From the NCBI RefSeq assembly GCF_002741015.1, contig NZ_CP016617.1, positions 62,001 through 126,000 of the forward strand: a stretch of DNA of 64,000 nucleotides. The letters run 5' to 3'. A model generated the notes under the pieces. The model had not been told where the DNA came from, made no database searches, and saw nothing but the letters and a program-made list of their open reading frames with translations. The stretch comes from Microvirga ossetica. Lineage in GTDB: Bacteria > Pseudomonadota > Alphaproteobacteria > Rhizobiales > Beijerinckiaceae. Made by a program: the position numbers and the translations under genes. Position 1 is the first letter of the stretch. Each line of letters opens with the position of its first letter. Positions 6,662 through 63,673 of this stretch are shown piece by piece.

Positions 6662-7797
6662 CTAAGCAGCGATTCGGTGGTTGGCCAACGGATGGCGACT
6701 TCGCTCGCAATTGAGCATCGCGACCGCCTCGTGGATGGCATCATCGAGGTTCTCTGGACCCGCGAAAGTCTGGTGAGCAAGATGATGCTGCTTCAGATCG
6801 CGCCAGAGCTCTTCGATGGCGTTGAGTTCGGGAGCGTACTTTGGCAGCCATTCGACCGTGAGCCAGGGCGCCCGCTCGGCGAGGGCGGCGCGCGTCGCCT
6901 TGCTGGTGTGGATCGGGCCATTATCGAGGACGAGCACGATCGGCTTCGTCGCACGAGCGGACGTTGGGCCATACTGCGTGTCGATCTGGTCCAGCAGCGC
7001 GATGAAATCGGCACTGCGCTTGCTCCGGCTGGTGCGCACGATCAGGTCCCGCGGGGCCCAGTCGAGCAGACCGAGCATCGCCACCTTGGCGGCTTGGCCG
7101 GGCGCGGGAATGCGCAGATCCGCGCCCTTCTTGGCCCAAGCATGGGCGAGATAGGGGTGGGTGAGCGCTTGGCCGGGCGCGGGAATGCGCAGATCCGCGC
7201 CCTTCTTGGCCCAAGCATGGGCGAGATAGGGGTGGGTGAGCGCTTCGGATTCATCCCCGAACAAGAGCACGATATCGCCCGCCTCGGCCTGCGCCTTCAG
7301 GAGCTTGCGGCGCAGGCCGGCGCGATCCACGGCGTCTGCATCCTGGCGGCCCTTCAGGGTATGGCGCGGCCGGCGCCAGCGGAAATCCCCCTTTGGCGCA
7401 ACACGACCGAAAGCCGTGAGCGCGAGATGCGCACGCCGGAGCGCTTCTCGATCTCGTCGGCCAGCCGCGGCAAGGTCCAGTTGGGGCGATTTGCGACCGA
7501 TCCCGCCAGAACCGCCTCGGCCACCGCGAGCGCCCGCTCGGCCTTGACCGGTGCCGGTCCCGGGGCAACGGATCGCCGCAGCGCGTCGACCCCACCCGTC
7601 ATGAAAGCGCTGCGCCAGAGCCGCACGGTATCCTCGCGCACGCCGAAGGCCTCGGCGATCCGCGGGCTCGTCCAGCCCGCCAGGGTCAGCAGGAGCGCCC
7701 GCGCCCGATCCGCCTCGCCCCGATCGCGCGAGTGGCTGAGAGCCATGAGCTCACGCCGCTGCGCGGCGCTTGCGACAACAGGGGATTTGCCCGCCAT
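6662..7797 (-). pseudogene. IS630-family transposase with frameshift and internal 25-residue duplication
   Basis: The first frame encodes the helix-turn-helix half (GWTSPRIAEAFGVREDTVRLWR, then WTLPRLADEI) and stops near 7354. The second frame begins with RRPRHTLKGRQ and carries the DDE half: LLFGDESEALTHPYLAH, VLVLDNGPIHTS and KYAPELNAIEELW. The two overlap, so either a programmed frameshift or a mutation separates them. Within the catalytic half a 75-bp unit occurs twice in frame, repeating ALTHPYLAHAWAKKGADLRI plus PAPGQ. The insertion falls between the first and second catalytic aspartates and probably disturbs the fold. The stop codon is made by the terminal TA target site. Confidence 0.85.
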
Positions 7798-7870
7798 GAT
7801 CCGCATCCCGAACCAAACTATGAGATGGAATCACAGACAGCATCCGTTGGCCACCCCGCTGAAACCTGCT
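6665..7870 (-). mobile_element. IS630-family element between TA duplications
   Basis: The element is bounded by TA dinucleotides at 6663-6664 and 7871-7872, as expected for IS630. Imperfect inverted repeats are seen at both ends: AGCAG at the outer edge and a shared inner block TGGCCAACGGATG. Its right edge touches the stop codon of the neighbouring EthD-like gene. Confidence 0.82.
7092..7241. repeat. Two tandem 75-bp copies inside the IS630 transposase
   Basis: Units 7092-7166 and 7167-7241 appear identical base for base. The length is a multiple of three, so the reading frame is kept. An exact duplication implies a recent slippage or recombination event, or an assembly artefact. Confidence 0.9.
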
Positions 7871-8181
7871 TAGGTCAGGTCTTCGGTAATCTGCACGATA
7901 GGCTGCACACTGGTGAAGTTAGGAATATCATCAAGAATTTCCTGACCATGGGCTTGAACCGCATTCTGGAAGTCTTCCAGGGTGCGGAAGGTGAGCAAGG
8001 CAATCACCTGATAGGGTGCAGGACTGCCATCTAGCGAGCTAACCCCCCGCATTTGACGCTGGTCTTCCAGGCCCATAGATCGCCAGCGCTCCCTCACAAA
8101 GGGGACGTGCTTGTGCAGGTAGTAGTCATAATTGAACGATGAACCGGGTTCGTTCGGATACAGAGCACTGATAACAACCAT
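7870..8181 (-). CDS. EthD-family protein
   Basis: A 103-residue protein of the EthD (PF07110) dimeric alpha/beta-barrel type. It begins VVISALYPN and contains FNYDYYLHKHVPFVRERW, the family's hallmark segment in which the Y-x-x-x-H-x-P stretch lines the pocket. The C-terminal half predicts a beta-alpha-beta unit (PYQVIALLTFRTLEDFQNAV). The length fits the family. A strong GGGAGGGAG ribosome site precedes the ATG at 8181. The name comes from an ether-degradation cluster, but most members have unknown roles. Here it stands alone between elements, and its stop codon overlaps the TA target of the IS630 element, so the last residues may differ from the original. Confidence 0.8.
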   Translation of the reverse strand: MVVISALYPNEPGSSFNYDYYLHKHVPFVRERWRSMGLEDQRQMRGVSSLDGSPAPYQVIALLTFRTLEDFQNAVQAHGQEILDDIPNFTSVQPIVQITEDLT

Positions 8182-8336
8182 CGCTCCCTCCCTGAGCCAG
8201 TAGGATCCAGCTTCCCATGAGGTTCTGCTTCAGATGTTCGATCAGCAAGAGGGTTTAAGCTGCGTCCGTTGGGCCTGTCTCAAAACAGAAGATCCCCGGT
8301 TCCATAAAGGCGCTTATCGGAAATTCACGTGTAGAA

Positions 8337-9754
8337 CCCCGTTAGAAAGGTCACTCCTCTCCCCGTTACAAATGTCACTCTCCCTGGGTGATGGTGCTGG
8401 GGAGATTGGGTCTGATGACGGTGATCGGGATGAGCCGGCCGGAGATCGATCGGGTTCACATTCTGCGGGACGTCGTGGCGGAGCGAATTACGGTGCGCGA
8501 AGCTGCCCAACTGCTGCGGATCACACGGCGCCAAGTGTTCCGATTACTCAAGGCCTATCAGACCGGTGGTCCCACGGCCTTGGTGTCGCGCCGGCGCGGC
8601 AAGCCCAGCAACCGCTCCTACCCGGCGGCGCTGCGGACCGAGGTGCTGGCGCTGATCACAGCCAACTATGCCGATTTCGGCCCGACGCTCGCCTGCGAGA
8701 AGCTCGCCGAGCGGCACGGCATCGATCTGGGTGTCGAGACGATCCGGCGCTGGATGATCGCGGCGGGTCTCTGGCAGGAGCGCCGGCAGAAGCTCAAAGG
8801 GGTGCACCAGCCGCGCTATCGGCGCGACTGCGTCGGCGAACTCGTCCAGATCGACGGCTCCGAGCACTACTGGTTCGAGGATCGCGGCCCACCCTGCACG
8901 CTTCTGGTCTACATTGACGATGCCACCAGCCGGCTGATGCACCTGAAGTTCGTCGAGACCGAGTCGACCTTTGATTATTTCCGATCGACCCGGGAGTACC
9001 TGGAGGCCTACGGCAAGCCGGTGGCGTTCTACTCCGACAAGCATGCCGTCTTCCGCGTCAACGGCAAAGGAGCGGTGGGCGGTGACGGCATGACCCAGTT
9101 CGGGCGAGCCCTGCATCAGCTCAACATCGACATCATCTGCGCCAACTCGCCCCAAGCCAAAGGCCGCGTCGAGCGCGCCAACGGCACCTTGCAGGACCGC
9201 CTGGTCAAGGAGATGCGACTGGCTGGGATCTCGACCCTTGAGGCGGGCAATGCCTTCCTGCCGGCATTCATGGCGGACTTCAACCGCCGCTTTGCCAAGG
9301 CGCCCTACAGCGACAAGGACCTGCATCGCCCGCTCAGCGAGGACGATGAGCTGGATGACGTGTTCGCCTGGCGGGAGGAGCGGACGGTCTCGCGCAATCT
9401 GACCCTGCAGTACGACCAGGTGCTGTTCATCCTCGAGCCGAACGCGATCACGCTGTCCCTCGCCCGCCAGCGGGTGACCGTCTACGACTATCCGGATGGG
9501 CGCTTTGCCATCAAGCACAAGGGCCTGGAGCTGCCCTACAGGCCCTTTGACCGACGCCAGCAGGTGGATCAGGCGGCGGTCGTCGAGAACAAGCGGCTGG
9601 GTCCGGTTCTGGCCTACATTGCCGAGCGGCAGAAGGAGCTCGACATGAGCCGGAGCAACAGCGCCCCGCGGCGGCGCGGCCAAGGCAAGAGCCTGTTCAA
9701 GGTGGGTTGAGCTCTCAGCAGTCACTCCCCGGAGGTGACATCTCTAATGAGGAC
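8337..9754 (+). mobile_element. ISNCY-like (rve-domain) insertion sequence
   Basis: A single transposase gene is flanked by inward-facing similar ends. The left end reads GTTAGAAAGGTCACTCC and the right end, inverted, ATTAGAGATGTCACCTCC. The exact edges and target duplication could not be fixed by eye, so the bounds are approximate (within about 10 bp). Confidence 0.6.
8415..9710 (+). CDS. ISNCY-like transposase
   Basis: The protein has about 431 residues from the ATG at 8415, which has a GGGGAGA about 11 bases upstream; a start at 8388 is also possible. It has an N-terminal helix-turn-helix (ITVREAAQLLRITRRQVFRLL), then a winged segment (LACEKLAERHGIDLGVETIR), then an rve-type integrase core. 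Catalytic candidates are the Asp in VQIDGSEHYWF, the Asp in FYSDKHAVF, and the Glu in KGRVERANGTLQ. The C-terminus has a short beta barrel ending KSLFKVG. This layout matches transposases filed as ISNCY in Rhizobiales. It appears intact. Confidence 0.85.
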   Translation: MTVIGMSRPEIDRVHILRDVVAERITVREAAQLLRITRRQVFRLLKAYQTGGPTALVSRRRGKPSNRSYPAALRTEVLALITANYADFGPTLACEKLAERHGIDLGVETIRRWMIAAGLWQERRQKLKGVHQPRYRRDCVGELVQIDGSEHYWFEDRGPPCTLLVYIDDATSRLMHLKFVETESTFDYFRSTREYLEAYGKPVAFYSDKHAVFRVNGKGAVGGDGMTQFGRALHQLNIDIICANSPQAKGRVERANGTLQDRLVKEMRLAGISTLEAGNAFLPAFMADFNRRFAKAPYSDKDLHRPLSEDDELDDVFAWREERTVSRNLTLQYDQVLFILEPNAITLSLARQRVTVYDYPDGRFAIKHKGLELPYRPFDRRQQVDQAAVVENKRLGPVLAYIAERQKELDMSRSNSAPRRRGQGKSLFKVG

Positions 9755-55535: not shown

Positions 55536-55980
55536 GGTTCATTATCGTTGGCATCCCTACTTTGGCCGAAAGGTCAGCGTGCGGCGGGTCGAGGAGCGGG
55601 CGACTGGCCGGTTTCTCCAGGTGGAAGGCCCATCTGGCATTGTCGTCTCGATTCCGGGCTGGATGTTAGATCCCATCGCTTGCGCCAAGATGAGAATTGG
55701 CCCGCCACAGATTGATCTCGCAGCGTTGTCCGATCTGAAGAGACTGGTCATGCCGACCGCTGCTTCCCCAAACTCCCCGAGCGCAATCAGATTCGCATGG
55801 GAGGAAGTCGATGAAACAGAACAACGTGTCAGCTCCGATCGCGGGCAGGCAGATGAGCCTGATATTCGAACCCCGCAGATTGGACGGGATGCGCGACGCG
55901 GAGCGGGCGAAGACAGTACTGCTTCTTGCCCAAATCCTGATGCAGGCCGCCGGCCTCGTCGTCGAGGAGTTGGGCGATGA
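55513..55980 (+). CDS. Recombinase-associated protein, DUF5372-like (5' end uncertain)
   Basis: The open frame continues from IS66 sequence without a clear start codon. From about 55,525 it reads REVHYRWHPYFGRKVSVRRV, then GRFLQVEGPSGIVVSIPGWM, LDPIACAKMRIGPPQIDLAA and LSDLKRLV. Such proteins (short, W-H-P-x-F-G-R near the start, I-P-x-W-M in the middle) commonly precede large serine recombinases in transposon cassettes; the match to DUF5372 is by remembered pattern. The last 55 residues overlap the next small gene in another frame and look non-conserved. The N-terminus may have been cut by the junction with IS66. Confidence 0.45.
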   Translation, partial: AHVGEEREVHYRWHPYFGRKVSVRRVEERATGRFLQVEGPSGIVVSIPGWMLDPIACAKMRIGPPQIDLAALSDLKRLVMPTAASPNSPSAIRFAWEEVDETEQRVSSDRGQADEPDIRTPQIGRDARRGAGEDSTASCPNPDAGRRPRRRGVGR

Positions 55981-55990
55981 CGAAGTCTGA
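55811..55990 (+). CDS. 59-residue protein coupled to the serine recombinase
   Basis: A short gene with an excellent GGGAGGAAG ribosome site just upstream of its ATG. It encodes MKQNNVSAPIAGRQMSLIFE, then PRRLDGMRDAERAKTVLLLA and a C-terminal helix QILMQAAGLVVEELGDDEV. The second half is strongly helical. It overlaps the recombinase start by 14 bases, so translation is probably coupled. Small helical proteins in this position are common in recombinase cassettes and may modulate the recombinase; that is inference. I do not recognise a named family. Confidence 0.65.
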   Translation: MKQNNVSAPIAGRQMSLIFEPRRLDGMRDAERAKTVLLLAQILMQAAGLVVEELGDDEV

Positions 55991-58049
55991 TCTGATCCCG
56001 ACGGTGCTGCTGAGGCGCAAGGCCGTCGTCTATGTGCGCCAGTCGACGCAATCCCAGGTCATGACCAATCTGGAGAGCCAGCGGCGCCAATATGATCTCG
56101 TCGATCTTGCACGCCAGCACGGCTTCGCCGACATTGAGGTCATCGACGATGATCTGGGCCGATCGGCGAGCGGGACGGTGGCGCGCCCGGGCTTCGATCG
56201 CCTGGTTGCATGGTTGTGCGCGGGCAAGGTCGGCGCTGTGTTGTGCCTGGATGCATCGCGGCTCGCGCGCAATGGCCGTGACTGGCATCATCTGCTGGAG
56301 TTGTGCGGACTTGTCGAAGCCCGCGTCATCGACCATGACGGCGTGTACAACCCCTGCCAGCCCAACGATCGCCTGGTTTTGGGTATGAAAGGCAGCATCA
56401 GCGAGTTTGAGCTCGGCGTGCTCAGGACACGGATGCTCGAGGCCGCCAAGTCGAAAGCGCGTCGGGGCGAGCTGCGCTTGTCAGTACCGTTCGGTTACAT
56501 CTGGCACCGCGAAGCAGGTCTGGGGCTCGACCCTGATCTGCGCTTGCAGGAGGTGATCCGGCTCATCTTCGCCCGCTTCCGCGAACTCGGCAGCGCGCGA
56601 CAGGTGTTATTGTCGATGACGGCTGATCAGATCCACTTCCCACGGCCTTCGGATGAGGGCCGCATGACCAGCTTTACCTGGTTGCCGATCCGCTATCGCA
56701 ACGTGATCGGCGTGCTCAAGAACCCCTTTTACGCGGGCGTGTACGTTTACGGGAAAAGCGAAAAGCGGACCTCTATTGTCGATGGGAGGGCCCGCCGGAG
56801 CTACGGCCACGGCAAGCCGGTCGGGACCTGGGAAGTGTTCATCAAGGATCATCACGAAGGGTACGTCAGCTGGGAGGAATACGAGCGAAACCAGAAGCAG
56901 TTGGCGCTCAACAACTATGGTCGCGCCGACGGGGTAAAATCCGGCCGTGGCGGCAAGGCACTGCTGTCAGGCGTTATGACGTGTGGACGGTGCGGGCGGC
57001 GACTGAGCGTGGCCTATACCGGTAATCCGCAAAGTCGACCTGTCTATCGCTGCGACAAGCCCAACCTGATGATGGGCTTGCCCCGGTGCATGACCTTCGG
57101 TGGCCCCAGGGTGGACGCGGCTGTTGCGCGTGAACTGTTGCGCGCGGTAGAACCCTTGGCGATTGAGGCCGCGTTCGAGGCGGAGCGAATGCACCGGGAA
57201 CGACAAGATGATCAACGCCAGATCCTCGATCTGGAGCTTAAGCAGGCCCGCTACGAGGCCGGTCTTGCTGAGCGCCGCTATGCTGCCTGTGATCCCGACA
57301 ATCGTTTGATCGCTGCGCAGTTGGAGAGAAACTGGGAAATTGCCTTACGCCGCGTGCAAGATCTGGAGGCGCGCCAGCCCGCCGGAACCCCATCGACCAT
57401 TGAGGTTGATCAAGGCGCTTTCGCCAACATGGCGGAAAACCTGTCAGCGGCCTGGAACACTCCTGATGTGACGATGCGTGCCCGTCAGCAACTGCTCCGG
57501 ACGTTGATCGCAGACATCATTGTCGATGTCGACGATACGGTTCGTGATGTCGTGCTCACGATCCATTGGCGGGGCGGCCAGCACTCAGAACTGCGTGTTC
57601 GCAAGCCGCGAACCGGCGAACACGGCTGCGCGACAGCGGAAGATGCGCTGGCAGTCATGCGCAGCATGGCCGGCCGCTGGTCTGACGAGCATATTGCCGC
57701 GTCGCTCAATCGGATGGGCTTGCCTACCGGCCAAGGTAAAACCTGGACGGCGCACCGCGTCTCTTCCGTTCGGCGCGTTCGCGGAATCCACGCCTATCGA
57801 TCCGCGGAGAAAGACGGCGAATGGCTGACCATGACCGAGGCGGCAATGGCGTTAGGCGTTACAAACCACGCGATACGTCGCCTCATCAAAACGGGCGTGC
57901 TTCCGGCTGTTCAGGTTGTCCCCGGTGCACCGTATCAAATCCGAGCCGACGATCTGGCGTCAGAGCCGATCAAAGCTGCGATGGCCCGGAAGGGCCGCCC
58001 GTGTCGCGCTGCTGATGCGGGTACGCTTCCAATGTTTACAGACACTTGA
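55977..58049 (+). CDS. Large serine recombinase with a C-terminal excisionase-like HTH
   Basis: A 690-residue protein. The resolvase domain starts VVYVRQSTQSQVMTNLESQR with the nucleophile Ser23 and continues EVIDDDLGRSASGTVARPGF and CLDASRLARNGRDW with the conserved Arg residues. A recombinase domain follows (PFGYIWHREAGLGLD, VLKNPFYAGVYVYGKSEKR). The zinc ribbon starts at Cys336-x-x-Cys339 (TCGRCGRRLSVAYTG). Then come a coiled coil and the ending RQQLLRTLIADIIVDVDDTV. After this, residues 616-665 form a MerR/Xis-type helix-turn-helix (WLTMTEAAMALGVTNHAIRR, then LIKTGVLPAVQV). All key residues are present, so it should be active. Confidence 0.92.
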   Translation: MTKSDLIPTVLLRRKAVVYVRQSTQSQVMTNLESQRRQYDLVDLARQHGFADIEVIDDDLGRSASGTVARPGFDRLVAWLCAGKVGAVLCLDASRLARNGRDWHHLLELCGLVEARVIDHDGVYNPCQPNDRLVLGMKGSISEFELGVLRTRMLEAAKSKARRGELRLSVPFGYIWHREAGLGLDPDLRLQEVIRLIFARFRELGSARQVLLSMTADQIHFPRPSDEGRMTSFTWLPIRYRNVIGVLKNPFYAGVYVYGKSEKRTSIVDGRARRSYGHGKPVGTWEVFIKDHHEGYVSWEEYERNQKQLALNNYGRADGVKSGRGGKALLSGVMTCGRCGRRLSVAYTGNPQSRPVYRCDKPNLMMGLPRCMTFGGPRVDAAVARELLRAVEPLAIEAAFEAERMHRERQDDQRQILDLELKQARYEAGLAERRYAACDPDNRLIAAQLERNWEIALRRVQDLEARQPAGTPSTIEVDQGAFANMAENLSAAWNTPDVTMRARQQLLRTLIADIIVDVDDTVRDVVLTIHWRGGQHSELRVRKPRTGEHGCATAEDALAVMRSMAGRWSDEHIAASLNRMGLPTGQGKTWTAHRVSSVRRVRGIHAYRSAEKDGEWLTMTEAAMALGVTNHAIRRLIKTGVLPAVQVVPGAPYQIRADDLASEPIKAAMARKGRPCRAADAGTLPMFTDT

Positions 58050-58070
58050 ATATGGAGTGCACAATGAAAC

Positions 58071-59468
58071 CTGCTTCACAAAGATCCGGATGTCGCGCTC
58101 CAGTAGATTGTTGTCGATCGGCATCCTGCCGTCCTCCAGAAACAGCGTGAAGGCAGGCCAGCGATTGAGCGCATAGCGCATCGCCTTGGCGAGCTCGCCC
58201 TTGCCGGGAATGCGCCGGAGCTGAGCCTCGCACCAGGCCTTGAAGGCCTCGACGCGCGGTCGACTGTCCCTCTGACGCACCGCGACACGCTGCTTGGCCG
58301 AGGCTCCCGTGATCGTCCGCTCGATGTCGTAGAGCGCGCCGATCCAATCGAGTGCCTCCCGGGCGATCGGAGAGTTCGTCCCCTTCCAGACATCGTGGAA
58401 ATCCCGGCGCAGATGCGCCCAGCAGGCCGCCTCGCGCACGCGGGCCGTTCCCGTGGCATCACGCTTGTAGAGTTCCTTGAAGCCGGAATAGCCATCCGCC
58501 TGCAGGATGCCGGTGAAGGTGGCAAGGTGGCGCTGCGGACGCTCGCCCTAGCGGTCGGGCGAGAACCAGTACGCGGCGCCGGGCGGACCGCGGCCGGCCC
58601 AGGGCCGATCGTCCCGGACATAGGCCCAGATCCGGCCTTCCTTGACTCCGCGCTCCTTGCCGCCCTTGCGCTGCGACGGGTCAAGCACCCGGATCGGGGT
58701 ATCGTCGCCATGCAGGTGGTCGGAGTTCATGACATGGCGTTTGATCCGAGCGCTCAACGGCCTCAGCGTGGCGACGGCCTGGCCGCACCAGTCAATCAGG
58801 GTCGAGCGTGGAATGTCGGCGCCGTGGCGGGCGAGGATCTCGCCCTGCCGGTACAACGGCAAGTGATCATCGAACTTCGAGACCAGGATATGGGCAAGCA
58901 GGTTCGGCCCGGCCATGCCGCGGCGGGTCGGACGCGTCGGCGCGGGCGGCTGCACGATCGTCTCGCAACACCGGCACGACTTCTTCAGGCGCGCCGTCTC
59001 CACGAGCTTGAGCTTTGCTGCGACAAAATCGAGGAGAGTGGAGACGTCTTCTCCAAGCAGGCGCAGAGAGCCTCCGCAGGCGGGGCAGCATTCGCCGGGG
59101 TCGAGCACGATCCGCTCGCGCGGCGTCGCGTCGGAAACCCGCGGCTGACCCCGCCGTCGTGTTGTCGACGCAGGTGTGCCTTCGCTCGTCGGTTCCGTCT
59201 CAAGTACCGGATGGGCCACGGCGATCGCCAGTTCGAGATCTTCAAGCGCGAGTTGAAGCTGTTCGATCTCGCGCTCGATCTTCTCGGAGCTGCGTCCAAA
59301 CTTCTGCTTTTGCAGCCGTGCGATGCGGATCTTCAACGTCTGTACGAGCGCTTCCAGGGCTTTCTCGGTCGCGGAAAGGCGCGTGATCTCCTCCCGTTGC
59401 GAGAGGATGATCGCCTTCAGCGCCAAGGGATCATCAGGGAGCGAATCGAGCGCGGCTACCATGCTCAA
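58071..59468 (-). pseudogene. tnpC: IS66 TnpC transposase with an internal stop and lost 3' end (copy B)
   Basis: The first 306 residues (from 59,468) hold the coiled-coil N-terminus (ALEALVQTLKIRIARLQKQK), the zinc-binding region CCPACGGSLRLLGE with CRCCETIVQP, LLAHILVSKFDDHLPLYRQG, and STLIDWCGQAVATLRPLSAR. A TAG stop at 58,548-58,550 interrupts the frame after AAYWFSPDR. The same frame continues GFKELYKRDATGTARVREAA, CWAHLRRDFHDVW and MPIDNNLLERDIR before breaking off next to the serine recombinase. It is clearly different from copy A. Inactive. Confidence 0.87.
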
Positions 59469-59760
59469 AATCTACCGCAAGCCGCCTGTCGAAGACAGTA
59501 TTCTGAAGCGATATCAAAAGGATAATCTACACGACGCGCGCCGGTGGCGCGGTCCATGCCGGCCGGCGCCAATCGATGCCTTCCCACAACATCGCCAACT
59601 GCGCCGAGGTCAGCCGCGCGGTCCCGTCCGCCGGCGATGGCCATGGGAAACGGCCTTTCTCGAGAACCTTGTAGTAAAGGCAAAATCCCTGGCCGTCCCA
59701 CATCAGCAGTTTGATCCGCTCCCTTCTGCGCCCCCGAAAGGCGAACACCGCGCCGGAATG

Positions 59761-59786
59761 CGGATATGTGGCGCGCCACATATCCG
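59761..59786. repeat. Perfect 26-bp palindrome at the RIT/IS66 junction
   Basis: The half-site CGGATATGTGGCG is followed immediately by its exact complement CGCCACATATCCG with no spacer. It lies between the disrupted tnpB codon and the RIT terminal repeat (59,789). It resembles a recombinase or repressor site. Confidence 0.93.
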
Positions 59787-59788
59787 TT

Positions 59789-59820
59789 CTTATGTGTCGT
59801 GAGAGATGATGTGGCGGCGG
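59789..59820. repeat. RIT left terminal inverted repeat
   Basis: Starts CTTATGTGTCGTGAGAGAT, then ATGTGGCGGCGG after one variable base. It pairs with 63,130-63,161 with two mismatches in 32 bases. Confidence 0.92.
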
Positions 59821-59927
59821 GATCGCTGACGGTGGAGTTCCAGCGCATTGCGGTTCCTGGCCGCTACATAATCTGAGCCATTTCTCCAGTGGGCGTTGGG
59901 CTATCCGCGCTCGCATGGAGAACGCAC

Positions 59928-61148
59928 ATGCTGGAACGCTACTTCAAGTATCCGAGGGTCCTGCATCGCTTGAGAGGCGGCGGCCTGGGTGACGAGCTCG
60001 ATTGCATCGCAACCCATCTTTTCGAGAGCGGCTATCAGCGCACTTCAGCGAAGATCTACCTCGGCCGATTGGGACGGTTCGGTGGAGTCGTATCACGCGC
60101 AAAGCCGATCACCCAAGCCCTGATCGATGGCTTTGTCGCCGGTTGTCCGACCAAAACCTCACGTGTCGCCGCACGCACCGCGATCGCCCTAGCCCGGAGG
60201 ATTGTTCCTCACCGCTTCGAGATTGGCCGTCACGAGCCCCATCCACATGAGGCCCTGCTGACAGGCTATTCCAGCTACCTGCGTGAGGTGCGCGGTCTGG
60301 CAGTGAAGACGCGGGAGGGTCAGATGCTCCTCGCGCGGCGGCTGCTTGCCTGGTGGGAGCGGCATCACGCCAGCGAGCCGCTCTCGGCCATGACCGGCAT
60401 ACATGTGCTGGCGCTCACCGGTCACCTCATGGGCCTGTCGTCCATGGATAACACGCGGGCAGCGACCGGGTCCTATATGCGCCGGTTTCTGAGGTTCCTG
60501 CACTGGGCCAACCTCAATGACCTGGACCTTGCGCGGTTCGTGCCGCGCACGCCATGCTACCGTCTCGCGCATTTGCCGCGGCAACTGGGTTGGGAGGATA
60601 TCAGGAAGGCGATCGACGCCATCGACCCTGCGACCCCTACCGGCAGTCGCGATCGGGCTATCCTCCTGTTGCTGGCCACGACCGGCATCCGCAACAAGGA
60701 ACTTCGCTCACTCGTCCTCGAGGATATTCGGTGGCGCGATGCGCAGGTTCGGATACGCCGCACCAAGGCGAGGCGCGATCGGAGCGTGCCCCTCACGCAG
60801 GAGGCGGGCGAAGCGCTCGCCGATTATGTCTTGCGGGCCCGGCCCGATTGCCGCAGCCGTCGCGTGTTCCTGGTGCACCTCCCGCCCGTGCGCCCGATCG
60901 ACTGCAGCACCAACATCTCCCGCATCGTCCGCTCCGCACTGCAGCGCGCCGGCATCGTGCTAAACGGTCCCATCGGCGCCCATCTCATCCGGCATAGCTT
61001 GGCGACCCATCTTGTCAACCGGCGACGACCGATCAACGAGATCGCCGACCTGCTCGGCCATCGCAGCATCGATACGACCGCCATCTACGTGAAGGTCGCG
61101 GTGTCGCAACTCGCCGAAGTCGCCCTTCCTTTTCCCGGAGACGCGTGA
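59928..61148 (+). CDS. RIT tyrosine recombinase 1 (RitA-like)
   Basis: The protein has 406 residues from the ATG at 59,928, with GGAG seven bases upstream. The N-terminal half is a SAM-like core-binding region (VRGLAVKTREGQMLLARRLL; MRRFLRFLHWANL). The catalytic domain has Arg255 in TTGIRNKELRSL, a Lys in RRTKARRDRSVPL, His352-x-x-Arg355 in HLIRHSLATHLV, LLGHRSIDTTAIYVKV with the second His, and Tyr387. All six active-site positions are present. In RIT elements the first gene encodes the longest recombinase, as here. Its stop overlaps the next start (TGATG). Confidence 0.92.
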   Translation: MLERYFKYPRVLHRLRGGGLGDELDCIATHLFESGYQRTSAKIYLGRLGRFGGVVSRAKPITQALIDGFVAGCPTKTSRVAARTAIALARRIVPHRFEIGRHEPHPHEALLTGYSSYLREVRGLAVKTREGQMLLARRLLAWWERHHASEPLSAMTGIHVLALTGHLMGLSSMDNTRAATGSYMRRFLRFLHWANLNDLDLARFVPRTPCYRLAHLPRQLGWEDIRKAIDAIDPATPTGSRDRAILLLLATTGIRNKELRSLVLEDIRWRDAQVRIRRTKARRDRSVPLTQEAGEALADYVLRARPDCRSRRVFLVHLPPVRPIDCSTNISRIVRSALQRAGIVLNGPIGAHLIRHSLATHLVNRRRPINEIADLLGHRSIDTTAIYVKVAVSQLAEVALPFPGDA

Positions 61149-62080
61149 TGAGCACATTCTCCAGCAGACTCAGCAAGCATGTCGAGGCCTATGTCGCGCT
61201 TCGACGCTCGCTCGGCTTCTCGCTCAGCAAGCAGGCCACGATCCTGCGCGCGCTCGTCGCCTATGTCGATGGCGAACAGCTCGATGGTCCACTCTGCCGC
61301 CAAACGGTGCTCGGCTTCATAGGCTCCTGGGCGGGCACGGCGAATGGACGGGCCGTTCGCTACGGCGTGGTTCGCAGATTCAGCGAGTATCTCGCCATCT
61401 TCGATCCGCGCACCGACGCGCTTGACCCCAAGGCCTTTCCCAGGAACCGAGCCATCCCGCCACCCAGGATCCTCACCGACGAGGAACTCTCACGGCTCAT
61501 GGCGGCATGCCGCGCGGTGTCGCCCGATTATCCCGAGCGCGCCCGGTTCCTGACGCCGCTCGTCGGCCTGCTCGCCAGCACCGGCATGCGGTCCGGCGAG
61601 GCGTTGCGCCTCGATCGCGGTGATGCCGATCTGGCTCAGGGGATTCTCCACATTCGAAGGACCAAGTTCCGCAAGGATCGCCTGGTTCCTGTCCATCCTT
61701 CGACGCTGGCGGTCCTGCGCGACTATGCAAGACTCCGGGATGGGGCCTTTCCAATGCCGGACATGCCAGCATTCTTCGTCAGCTCGCGTGGGACGCGATT
61801 GTCGAAGTCCGGTCTGAACGCCGCCTTCGGCGCGGCGCGCTCCCTCGCCGGCCTCGATCGCGGCAAGCCGGTGCGTCTCCACGACCTGCGTCACCGTTTC
61901 GCGGTCAGGCGGCTGGCGAACTGGCACCAGCAAGGCGCCGATGCGCGAGCGATGCTGCCGCTGCTCGCGACCTATCTCGGCCATGGCCACTACAGCGACA
62001 CCGCCTATTACGTCACCGCGGACGCCGATCTTTTGGCCATGGCCGCCGAACGGGCCTTGGCCTGGGGAGAGACGCCATGA
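61148..62080 (+). CDS. RIT tyrosine recombinase 2 (RitB-like)
   Basis: A 310-residue tyrosine recombinase. The start is the ATG overlapping the upstream TGA. The N-terminal domain includes HVEAYVALRRSLGFSLSKQA and RRFSEYLAIFDPR, followed by PPRILTDEELSRLMAACR. The catalytic residues are Arg148 in STGMRSGEALRL, Lys in RRTKFRKDRLVPV, His245-x-x-Arg248 in HDLRHRFAVRRL, YLGHGHYSDTAYYV with the second His, and Tyr287 or Tyr288. It overlaps the third gene by ATGA, so all three are made from one message. Confidence 0.92.
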   Translation: MSTFSSRLSKHVEAYVALRRSLGFSLSKQATILRALVAYVDGEQLDGPLCRQTVLGFIGSWAGTANGRAVRYGVVRRFSEYLAIFDPRTDALDPKAFPRNRAIPPPRILTDEELSRLMAACRAVSPDYPERARFLTPLVGLLASTGMRSGEALRLDRGDADLAQGILHIRRTKFRKDRLVPVHPSTLAVLRDYARLRDGAFPMPDMPAFFVSSRGTRLSKSGLNAAFGAARSLAGLDRGKPVRLHDLRHRFAVRRLANWHQQGADARAMLPLLATYLGHGHYSDTAYYVTADADLLAMAAERALAWGETP

Positions 62081-63078
62081 CCGGCCGCTTCTCCTTTCCG
62101 TCGCTGCTGGAGTCCTTCTTCCGCCATCGCATGGCCAAGCAGCGCAATGCCACGCCAGCAACGATCGCCAGTTATCGGGATGCCCTTCGCATGCTGATCC
62201 TGTTTGCCGCCGATAGGACCGGATGTACGCCATGCGATCTCACCATCGGCGACTTGGATCGCGACACCATCCTTGCCTTCCTCGATCACCTGGAGGTCTC
62301 GCGCGGGAACAAGGTCCAGACGCGCAATGCGCGGCTGGCGGCGGTGCGATCCTTCTTCCAGCACGTCGCCGCCAACGACCCCGCCTCGCTTGGCATCGCC
62401 CATAGGATCCTCGCCATCCCGCTGAAGAAAGCGCACACCGAGATCACCCATCACCTCACGCGCACGGAGCTGGATGCGCTCATCGCGGCGCCTGATCAAC
62501 GGACCGTACGGGGCCGCCGCGATCGAACCTTGCTGCTGTTTCTCGGTCGCACCGGCGCCCGGGTAACCGAAGCAACGGGCGTCAATGTCGACGATGTCCA
62601 GCTCGACCGGACCAGGCCCCAGGTGCTTCTGCGCGGCAAGGGGCGCAGGGAACGTGTTGTGCCAGTCTCGGCCGATCTCGCTCAAGCCCTCAGAGCCTTG
62701 ATCGCCGAACATGGCCTCAACCATGATTCGCGGGATCCGATATTCCGCGGCGCCCGTGGTGAGCGAATGACTCGGTTCGGTGTGACGCACGTCGTCCGGC
62801 GCGCGGTAGCCGCGGTCACGCAGCCGGGGTTAGCATGCAAGGTCGTGTCGCCCCATGTTCTGCGCCACACCCTCGCCATGACGCTGCTGCAATCGGGTGT
62901 CGACCTGCTCACGATCCAGGCCTGGCTCGGTCATGCCCAGGTCGCGACGACACATCGCTATGCGGCCGCCGATGTCGAGATGATGCGCCGCGGTCTCGAC
63001 CACGCCGCCATCCCGGGCAAGCACCCCGCCCGGTTCAAGGCAAAGGACGCGGTGCTTCAACTGCTTGAGAGCCTATAA
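62077..63078 (+). CDS. RIT tyrosine recombinase 3 (RitC-like)
   Basis: A 333-residue tyrosine recombinase. The core-binding domain reads RNATPATIASYRDALRMLIL, FLDHLEVSRGNKVQTRNARL and AVRSFFQHVAA. The catalytic domain has Arg162 in GRTGARVTEATGV, Lys in GKGRRERVVPV, His260-x-x-Arg263 in HVLRHTLAMTLL, WLGHAQVATTHRYA and Tyr295. The stop (63,076-63,078) is immediately followed by the right-end repeat motif. All three proteins seem intact, so the element may be mobile. Confidence 0.92.
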   Translation: MTGRFSFPSLLESFFRHRMAKQRNATPATIASYRDALRMLILFAADRTGCTPCDLTIGDLDRDTILAFLDHLEVSRGNKVQTRNARLAAVRSFFQHVAANDPASLGIAHRILAIPLKKAHTEITHHLTRTELDALIAAPDQRTVRGRRDRTLLLFLGRTGARVTEATGVNVDDVQLDRTRPQVLLRGKGRRERVVPVSADLAQALRALIAEHGLNHDSRDPIFRGARGERMTRFGVTHVVRRAVAAVTQPGLACKVVSPHVLRHTLAMTLLQSGVDLLTIQAWLGHAQVATTHRYAAADVEMMRRGLDHAAIPGKHPARFKAKDAVLQLLESL

Positions 63079-63129
63079 TTATGTGGCGGCTGGGAGCCGC
63101 AAAATGCTGGGATGCCGCCATCGGCTCTG

Positions 63130-63161
63130 CCGCCGTCACATAATCTCTCACGACACATAAG
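63130..63161. repeat. RIT right terminal inverted repeat
   Basis: Inverse of the left repeat; read inward it starts CTTATGTGTCGTGAGAGAT followed by TATGTGACGGCGG. Confidence 0.92.
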
Positions 63162-63273
63162 GCCGGGTTCTGATGCAGAACCTCCTGAGCCAGGGCGGCA
63201 AGGCCGGTGATGCCGCGGCGCATGTCGGTCACCCCACAGGCAAGGTAGACCCGAACACCCACTCCCGGTCCGA

Positions 63274-63651
63274 TCATGCGCTCTCCGCAATCCGGATGGC
63301 GCGCATGAGCAGGTTCTCCGGCAAATCCGCTGCGGCGCGCACGATCCGCCCGTTGCGCAGCCCGATCTCCACATGGCGCTCGTTTGCTGGAAAAGCATTG
63401 GAGGTCCCGCCTTGCGGCGGCGCTGCGGCAAGCTCCACAGGCAGAAACCGGGTCTCCTCGACCGGGACCATGCGCTTGTCCCGCGTCTCTCGGCGCCACT
63501 GATAGAAATGCTGGCGCGTGATGGCGTGCCGCCGCGCCACATCCGACACCGTCGCGCCCTCCACGCCGACTTCGCTTAAAATCTGCGACTTCTCTTCGGT
63601 CGACCAGCGCCGACGCCGCTCTATGCCAGTCAGGATCTCTTGCCGCATCAT
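63274..63651 (-). CDS. tnpA: IS66 TnpA (copy B)
   Basis: The protein has 125 residues from the first of two adjacent ATGs at 63,651, preceded by AGGA. The helix-turn-helix reads RRRRWSTEEKSQILSEVGVE and VSDVARRHAITRQHFYQWRR; the C-terminal beta region is HVEIGLRNGRIVRAAADLPE with NLLMRAIRIAESA. It overlaps tnpB by ATGA. It remains intact although tnpB and tnpC are destroyed. Confidence 0.88.
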   Translation of the reverse strand: MMRQEILTGIERRRRWSTEEKSQILSEVGVEGATVSDVARRHAITRQHFYQWRRETRDKRMVPVEETRFLPVELAAAPPQGGTSNAFPANERHVEIGLRNGRIVRAAADLPENLLMRAIRIAESA

Positions 63652-63673
63652 CCACGTCCTTGATGACGTCAAT

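Follow-up and report, generated by a model that had tools for sequence, protein, structure and literature searches.

Where does a recombinase-in-trio (RIT) element end, and how does it move? The question is raised by a locus in the window, a 64,000-nucleotide stretch of Microvirga ossetica (contig NZ_CP016617.1, positions 62,001 to 126,000; C2:62001-126000 of a genome of 9,631,051 bases in six contigs), in which a RIT element interrupts the tnpB gene of an IS66 element. An earlier note, made from the sequence of the window, had set the edges of the insertion at 59764 and 63166, around a trio flanked by 32-bp inverted repeats. Comparison of the locus with a second copy in the same genome and with related trios indicated that the moving unit also includes a 20-bp palindrome (PAL) and 6-bp spacers and that the 6-mers at its two edges have different origins. 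From these comparisons it is very probable that RIT elements move as a circle in which PAL would supply the partner half-site to both ends, giving two attP sites with 6-bp coupling sequences.

A second copy in the same genome

A second RIT body was detected at C2:215140-218510 on the minus strand, in a different IS66 tnpB gene but at the same codons as the copy in the window (copy 1). The two copies shared 3406 bp with 1 mismatch, and the shared block contained both PAL and the 6-mer outside it. The block opens with GCCGGA, a target sequence common to both tnpB genes, and runs through ATGCGG, the 20-bp palindrome ATATGTGGCGCGCCACATAT, CCGTTC and the RIT body to CACATAA, where identity stops; the bases that follow are GGCCGG in copy 1 and ATGCGG in copy 2. 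The presence of near-identical RIT copies in two different host genes indicated, at the level of sequence, that the element is mobile.

The right end of this identity and the terminal repeats defined a RIT body of 3371 bp in the window, from terminal half-site to terminal half-site (59790..63160; neither this nor the features listed in this paragraph have a strand). Its left end carries a terminal half-site, M1 (TTATGTGTCG, 59790..59799), and a second half-site, M2 (TGATGTGGCG, 59807..59816), which starts 17 bp after the start of M1, and its right end carries the same pair, inverted (M2, 63134..63143; M1, 63151..63160). PAL, a perfect palindrome of two back-to-back half-sites (ATATGTGGCG/CGCCACATAT, 59764..59783) that is carried with the element, was placed exactly 6 bp beyond the left RIT end; in the inverted-repeat listing, a 26-bp perfect palindrome was present at this left edge (59761-59786). 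Three 6-bp spacers complete the arrangement. The inner spacer (Z; CCGTTC, 59784..59789) lies between PAL and the ritA end and is identical in copy 2, the outer spacer (Y; ATGCGG, or CCGCAT in the tnpB sense, 59758..59763) equals the target 6-mer of copy 2, and the right spacer (X; GGCCGG, or CCGGCC in the tnpB sense, 63161..63166) provides Pro-Ala codons and was taken as native target sequence.

The terminal inverted repeats were confirmed, with matches at 29/32 positions and with wider arms of 89 nucleotides each that were 78% complementary, but they do not limit the element, since the moving unit also holds the palindrome and the 6-bp spacers outside them. The edges proposed earlier combined separate parts (palindrome, inner 6-mer, RIT body and right 6-mer) and left out the outer 6-mer, and the CGG that had been read as the mark of both edges was a 3-base coincidence between two unlike 6-mers, ATGCGG and GGCCGG.

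In the tnpB sense, copy 1 reads N-[CCGGCC]-RIT-[GAACGG]-PAL-[CCGCAT]-C and copy 2 reads N-[CCGCAT]-RIT-[GAACGG]-PAL-[CCGCAT]-C. CCGCAT was present in both intact relatives of the tnpB gene of copy 2 (L107 and L108). The four intact relatives of the tnpB gene of copy 1 (96-107 of 141 positions identical) had CCCGGC, CCTGCA, CCGACA or CCGACG at the site, encoding Pro-Gly, Pro-Ala or Pro-Thr and in no case Pro-His. These codons indicated that CCGGCC fits the gene type of copy 1 and that CCGCAT is an import, for which copy 2 is the simplest source. No exact intact version of the tnpB interrupted by copy 1 was found, and its native 6-mer was taken from these relatives, which are ∼70% identical. With the native sequence assigned in this way, the 6-bp spacer has one native edge and one donor edge, as in the coupling sequences of Tn916, Tn554 and the strand-biased circularizing integrative elements (SE).

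Insertion of the trio into a reconstructable tnpB gene, as had been claimed in the earlier note, was borne out. An N-terminal part of 39 codons (63161..63277, minus strand; TnpB_IS66, 5.4e-07) and a C-terminal part of 76 codons plus the stop (59527..59757, minus strand; TnpB_IS66, 1.1e-25) matched positions 2-32 and 33-99 of the 101 positions of the Pfam profile, and hence the gene was split between two adjacent profile positions. The search for an intact tnpB and for further copies, which the note had suggested, yielded intact relatives and copy 2 but not the exact empty gene; the trio is not tied to one IS66, as copy 2 lies in another, and tnpB genes without a trio exist elsewhere. A close RitB was found in 6/397 genomes of the family, including that of the window.

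The palindrome in related trios

Profile searches with RitB, the product of the second gene of the trio, gave matches in 10/398 genomes of the phylum, 26/248 of the family of genome G593 and 18/249 of the family of genome G398, with the center genome counted each time. The stretches fetched and the earlier loci amounted to 74 trios (loci with L numbers), and the 43 with a terminal repeat pair of at least 21/27 were scored. A palindrome of at least 8/10 pairs was present at an offset of exactly 6 in 32 of these 43 trios. At other offsets from 0 to 40, only two palindrome matches were detected, both at L135, and the background was 42/40,589 windows of sequence. PAL was found at both ends in none of the 31 trios with two readable flanks; one flank of L122 is cut. 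A PAL at 6 bp was also seen separately in some of the unscored trios (L047, L052, L094, L105, L127, L128, L150, L174 and L175, with a weak one in L054). Nine families were recognized by PAL arm and M1 from 34 rows, which comprised the 32 trios plus L052 and L105, added by hand.

The RIT end consists of two direct half-sites 17 bp apart. In each of the seven copy pairs with visible edges (window/L027, L052/L105, L103/L104, L134/L135, L140/L141, L167/L168 and L174/L175), this spacing was read by eye; it was partly required by the survey script, and the 43 scored trios provide no independent evidence for it.

Relatives of the type found in tnpB were present in Microvirga, Sphingobium, Methylovirgula, Mesorhizobium, Sinorhizobium, Ensifer and Rhizobium, mostly in IS66 tnpB at this site and in either orientation; the flanks left of L040 and right of L055, L050 and L053 were not recognized as tnpB, other sequence being present to the right of L050 and L053. 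Where PAL is still beside a RIT end, it was on the C side of tnpB in 12/12 copies (window, L027, L036, L037, L038, L047, L048, L049, L052, L054 with its weak PAL, L105 and L106), with 6 bp between it and the RIT end and another 6-mer beyond it; the trio points either way. Of these copies, six have PAL at the ritA side and five at the ritC side; in L106 the trio is not shown. Two PALs of the tnpB type were located away from any RIT end, one on the C side of tnpB (L058), where the RIT side of PAL was replaced by other sequence, and one outside tnpB (L101). A degenerate PAL pattern was present in 12/18 genomes or records chosen for holding relatives, with no matches for a reversed-pattern control, and in 3/397 genomes of the order, including that of the window, with a match for the reversed pattern in one genome.

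Two of these loci have unusual surroundings. To the right of the RIT end, L050 and L053 have similar sequence (TTGGACTAACCCGCTCCG...) in the place of PAL, and in L050 a fourth tyrosine recombinase gene and an IS91 family transposase gene come next, with PAL again beyond them (L058). The lone PAL of L101 (3114-3133), which has no RIT, lies between a degP-like coding sequence and the apparent 3′ end of a gene for a large serine recombinase (names assigned by eye), and the 6-mers on its two sides are unlike each other.

Inheritance of the 6-bp spacers

For any trio, X was defined as the 6-mer at the end without PAL, Z as that between RIT and PAL and Y as that outside PAL. A circle of the form RIT-[Z]-PAL-[W]-RIT, in which W is the X or Y of the donor, makes exact predictions for a daughter copy. 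If PAL stays on the same side, the daughter must retain Z and have W in X or Y; if PAL is on the opposite side, W must become the daughter's Z, and the Z of the donor must recur in its X or Y.

This rule was obeyed by 7/8 scored same-genome pairs and by a ninth pair, L173b/L181, which was read by eye and is less informative, as its 6-mers are alike. Among other pairs, the rule was obeyed by 1/622 overall (L039/L163), by 1/254 within a family and by 0/134 within a family on opposite sides. Not included in the same-genome test were L176/L177, L126/L127 and L121/L122 (different genomes), L132/L133 (no shared anchor) and L134/L135 (L135 lacks PAL). The direction of transfer is decidable for some pairs only. 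Daughters fit whether the foreign 6-mer is X or Y, and hence no strict strand bias was visible.

Proposed mechanism and alternatives

The implied attP has the form CGCCACATAA-N6-TTATGTGTCG-like, with inverted half-sites around 6 bp; inverted half-sites around a short spacer are the usual geometry of a tyrosine recombinase core site. In the proposed circle, PAL would take the place of the N half of the target and the RIT end that of the C half. These roles predict integration in either orientation with PAL at the C side, as was seen. The junctions present in complete tnpB cases were N-RIT, PAL-C and PAL-RIT only, along with intact N-C targets; L101 lies outside this scheme. Movement could be by cut-and-paste or by copy-out, both copies of each pair being filled, and the two core-binding domains of RitA could, as a guess, grip M1 and M2.

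An integrated element would retain a live RIT-[Z]-PAL site, and if such a site captured another target, an N half would be expected on both sides of the trio. An N half was observed by eye on both sides of L029, L035, L135 and the trio of pHG1 (L196). The reciprocal product, a lone PAL between two C halves, was found neither in the genome of L135 nor, for L029, in genome G000, and no lone PAL between two C halves was present in the 18 genomes or records or in the eight genomes carrying a RIT of the TTATGCCGA type; the missing product makes the target-capture step weaker.

Other observations also weigh against the proposed circle. Neither a circle nor a PAL flanked by two RIT ends was seen among the loci inspected, all of them in assembled genomes. 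L101 demonstrates a lone PAL of the window element's type outside tnpB and without a RIT, and PAL was looked for and not found at the pHG1 trio. Survey counts were not independent, since RIT copies are related and fall into nine families; 31/74 trios, without a repeat pair of at least 21/27, were unscored; and 11/43 scored trios had no PAL of 8 pairs. These 11 comprised three with weak palindromes of 6-7 pairs (L053, which is nested, L089 and L096), two with the target N half at both ends (L029 and L135), three whose flank is missing at one end or both (L086, L120 and L124) and three for which the script had picked other repeats (L035, L092 and L147). The 6-mers are themselves partly constrained by target codons, and one same-genome pair, L168/L169, failed the rule. 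The two copies of this pair look like siblings, and the rule derives both from L167. The 6-mers of L167 are GGGGCA (Z), GACCCA (X) and AGTGCA (Y); those of L168 include AGTGCA (Z) and GGGGCA (X), and those of L169 include GACCCA (Z) and GGGGCA (Y), so that each of the two edge 6-mers of L167 recurs in one of them. In a separate observation, L086 and L124 were short contigs that stop 3-7 bases beyond the RIT ends, as expected of collapsed multi-copy elements.

Four other explanations were considered. The same sites could serve for inversion of the trio in place, by recombination of N-[X]-RIT with RIT-[Z]-PAL, while the circle always uses one junction. As the two sites are mutually inverted, this process should give the same 6-mer sets, and it could act alongside a two-junction circle; it is not needed for the pairs described above, and as a replacement for the two-junction circle we regard it as possible but doubtful.

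A conventional element with one fixed attP, in which PAL belongs to the left end and only one junction forms in the circle, as in Tn916 or Tn554, would agree with copies 1 and 2: PAL is at the ritA side in both and lies within a single shared block. The survey contradicted this arrangement. PAL was at the ritA end in 16 and at the ritC end in 16 of the 32 trios, and its side switched between near-identical copies in the same genome (L052/L105, L103/L104, L140/L141, L167/L168, L167/L169, L174/L175 and L173b/L181). These switches ruled out PAL as a fixed left end unless assembly errors are present in several genomes, and this explanation is highly improbable.

PAL could also be a terminator, a separate miniature element or a palindrome derived from the target, with no relation to RIT movement, and the lone PAL of L101 is what such an origin would allow. 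The spacing was exactly 6 bp not only in the 32 trios but also at 12/12 PAL places in the eight genomes that contain a TTATGCCGA-type RIT. PAL arms resembled the terminal half-site of their own RIT (a mean of 7/10 positions identical over the nine families; range, 5-9) and varied with the RIT family, and PAL accompanied the RIT into new targets. A terminator and a target-derived palindrome were ruled out by the fixed spacing and by the presence of PAL with the element in new targets, and there is very little chance that PAL is unrelated to the element. A simple insertion bounded by 32-bp inverted repeats, with CGG repeated at either edge, has a negligible probability, for although the repeats are real and CGG is present at both positions, copy 2 shares PAL and a 6-mer outside the repeats and the edge 6-mers of other copies differ.

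The trio genes and their host

The three recombinase genes lie next to each other in one direction, as is typical of a RIT, and all three are on the plus strand. ritA (59928..61148) encodes a 406-amino-acid tyrosine recombinase, the longest of the three Rit proteins (Pfam Phage_integrase, 2.2e-31), in which TTGIR, TK, HLIRH, LGH and the tyrosine are present; an ATG was taken as its start, although the open reading frame itself opens upstream at a GTG (59889). ritB (61148..62080; 310 amino acids; 1.4e-22) and ritC (62077..63078; 333 amino acids; 1.7e-33) also encode tyrosine recombinases, and the R, K, H-x-x-R, H and Y catalytic residues form a complete set in RitA, RitB and RitC alike. By the coordinates of the reading frames, ritA and ritB overlap by 1 base and ritB and ritC by 4 bases. 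Three tyrosine recombinases with complete active sites and overlaps of 1-4 bases, as first described for this locus, were thus substantiated. Each Rit protein matched the gene at the same position in related trios, including those of NGR234, better than the other two genes; among these related trios, RitA, RitB and RitC thus form a separate family each, as expected of a RIT. Only the three recombinase genes were recognized between the element ends, and the four-gene module of SE or GInts was not found.

The host IS66 retains the tnpA accessory gene upstream of the split tnpB (63274..63672, minus strand; NF047595, 84.9 bits, above its cut-off) and the 5′ part only of tnpC downstream (58548..59468, minus strand; NF033517, 183.3 bits, above its cut-off). 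This IS66 is damaged elsewhere too, as tnpC is broken over two minus-strand open reading frames (window 55977-58439). The 3′ end of tnpC in that region adjoins a gene for a large serine recombinase of 690 amino acids, and the tnpB of copy 2 is likewise beside a large serine recombinase gene (L027:5563 onward).

The targets of other RIT families, identified by Pfam on the flank pieces, included an ArdC metallopeptidase (L165), SRAP (L134), an IS66 transposase (L091) and a Strawberry-notch type helicase (L174). Judging by these loci and L135, RIT families seem to select codons of conserved proteins, and in SRAP those at its start. In four loci, a RIT of a different type was inserted in the ritC gene of another RIT, by eye at the HxxRH codons (L053:6832-9997, L040 at about 6862-9267, L089:3903-7068 and L196:16433-19607). 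Both parts of the interrupted ritC were present in L053 and L089, only the first part was matched in L040, and the first part was on both sides in pHG1 (L196).

Comparison with known elements

Tn554 and Tn916 bring along a short donor flank in transposition, as the RIT of the window appears to do, with different gene sets, and we know of no detached palindromic partner site for either. The element in the window resembles described RIT elements in having three adjacent, overlapping tyrosine recombinase genes, a length of about 3.5 kb (a shared block of 3406 bp here) and terminal inverted repeats. For RIT elements, which are known from Cupriavidus metallidurans CH34 and plasmid pHG1 among others, a table note gives 34 bp terminal inverted repeats, and RIT movement is listed as not tested (PMC10214605). 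Insertions of CH34 RIT elements into IS66 tnpA and radC have been reported (PMC2864759). A 2012 description mentions a "28-9 bp inverted repeat" and an overlapping palindromic sequence close to the ends, with transposons among the insertion sites, finds the repeats a poor fit to the usual recombinase sites, and gives gene overlaps of four to eight bp, one of the two overlaps in the window (1 and 4 bp) being below this range (PMC3414803). Two core-binding domains are described for RitA, and an additional helix at the C terminus for RitC (PMC8138268).

The 6-bp spacing, the coupling sequence and the two-junction circle are absent from the passages describing RIT elements in PMC10214605, PMC2864759 and PMC3414803. 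A two-junction PAL circle was not found described in the literature searched, which left out Ricker et al. 2013 and Van Houdt et al. 2009, and parts of the PAL scheme may have been described earlier. SE are similar in their tyrosine recombinases, their carriage of 6 bp of donor flank and their imperfect inverted repeats but differ in having four genes, intA-tfp-intB-srap, and a detached palindrome does not form part of the account of SE given there (PMC10214605). GInts also require several integrase genes together but have four genes, ginABCD, and are found on genomic islands, as summarized in the passages on these elements (PMC10214605).

Implications

The arrangement of PAL arm, 6 bp, M1, 7 bp and M2 specifies exact substrates and exact junction predictions, which makes the proposed mechanism testable with short oligonucleotides. 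PAL and its 6-mers also provide a rule for locating the true ends of RIT elements and for reading parent and daughter copies. For RIT elements as a class, it is probable that a partner site is obligatory, a role filled by a detachable 20-bp palindrome that would make the circle a two-attP molecule. Each integrated copy would then hold a third live site, which may lead to flipping of the trio, fusion of target half-sites (N-RIT-N′) and rearrangement around IS66, ArdC, SRAP and other conserved genes.

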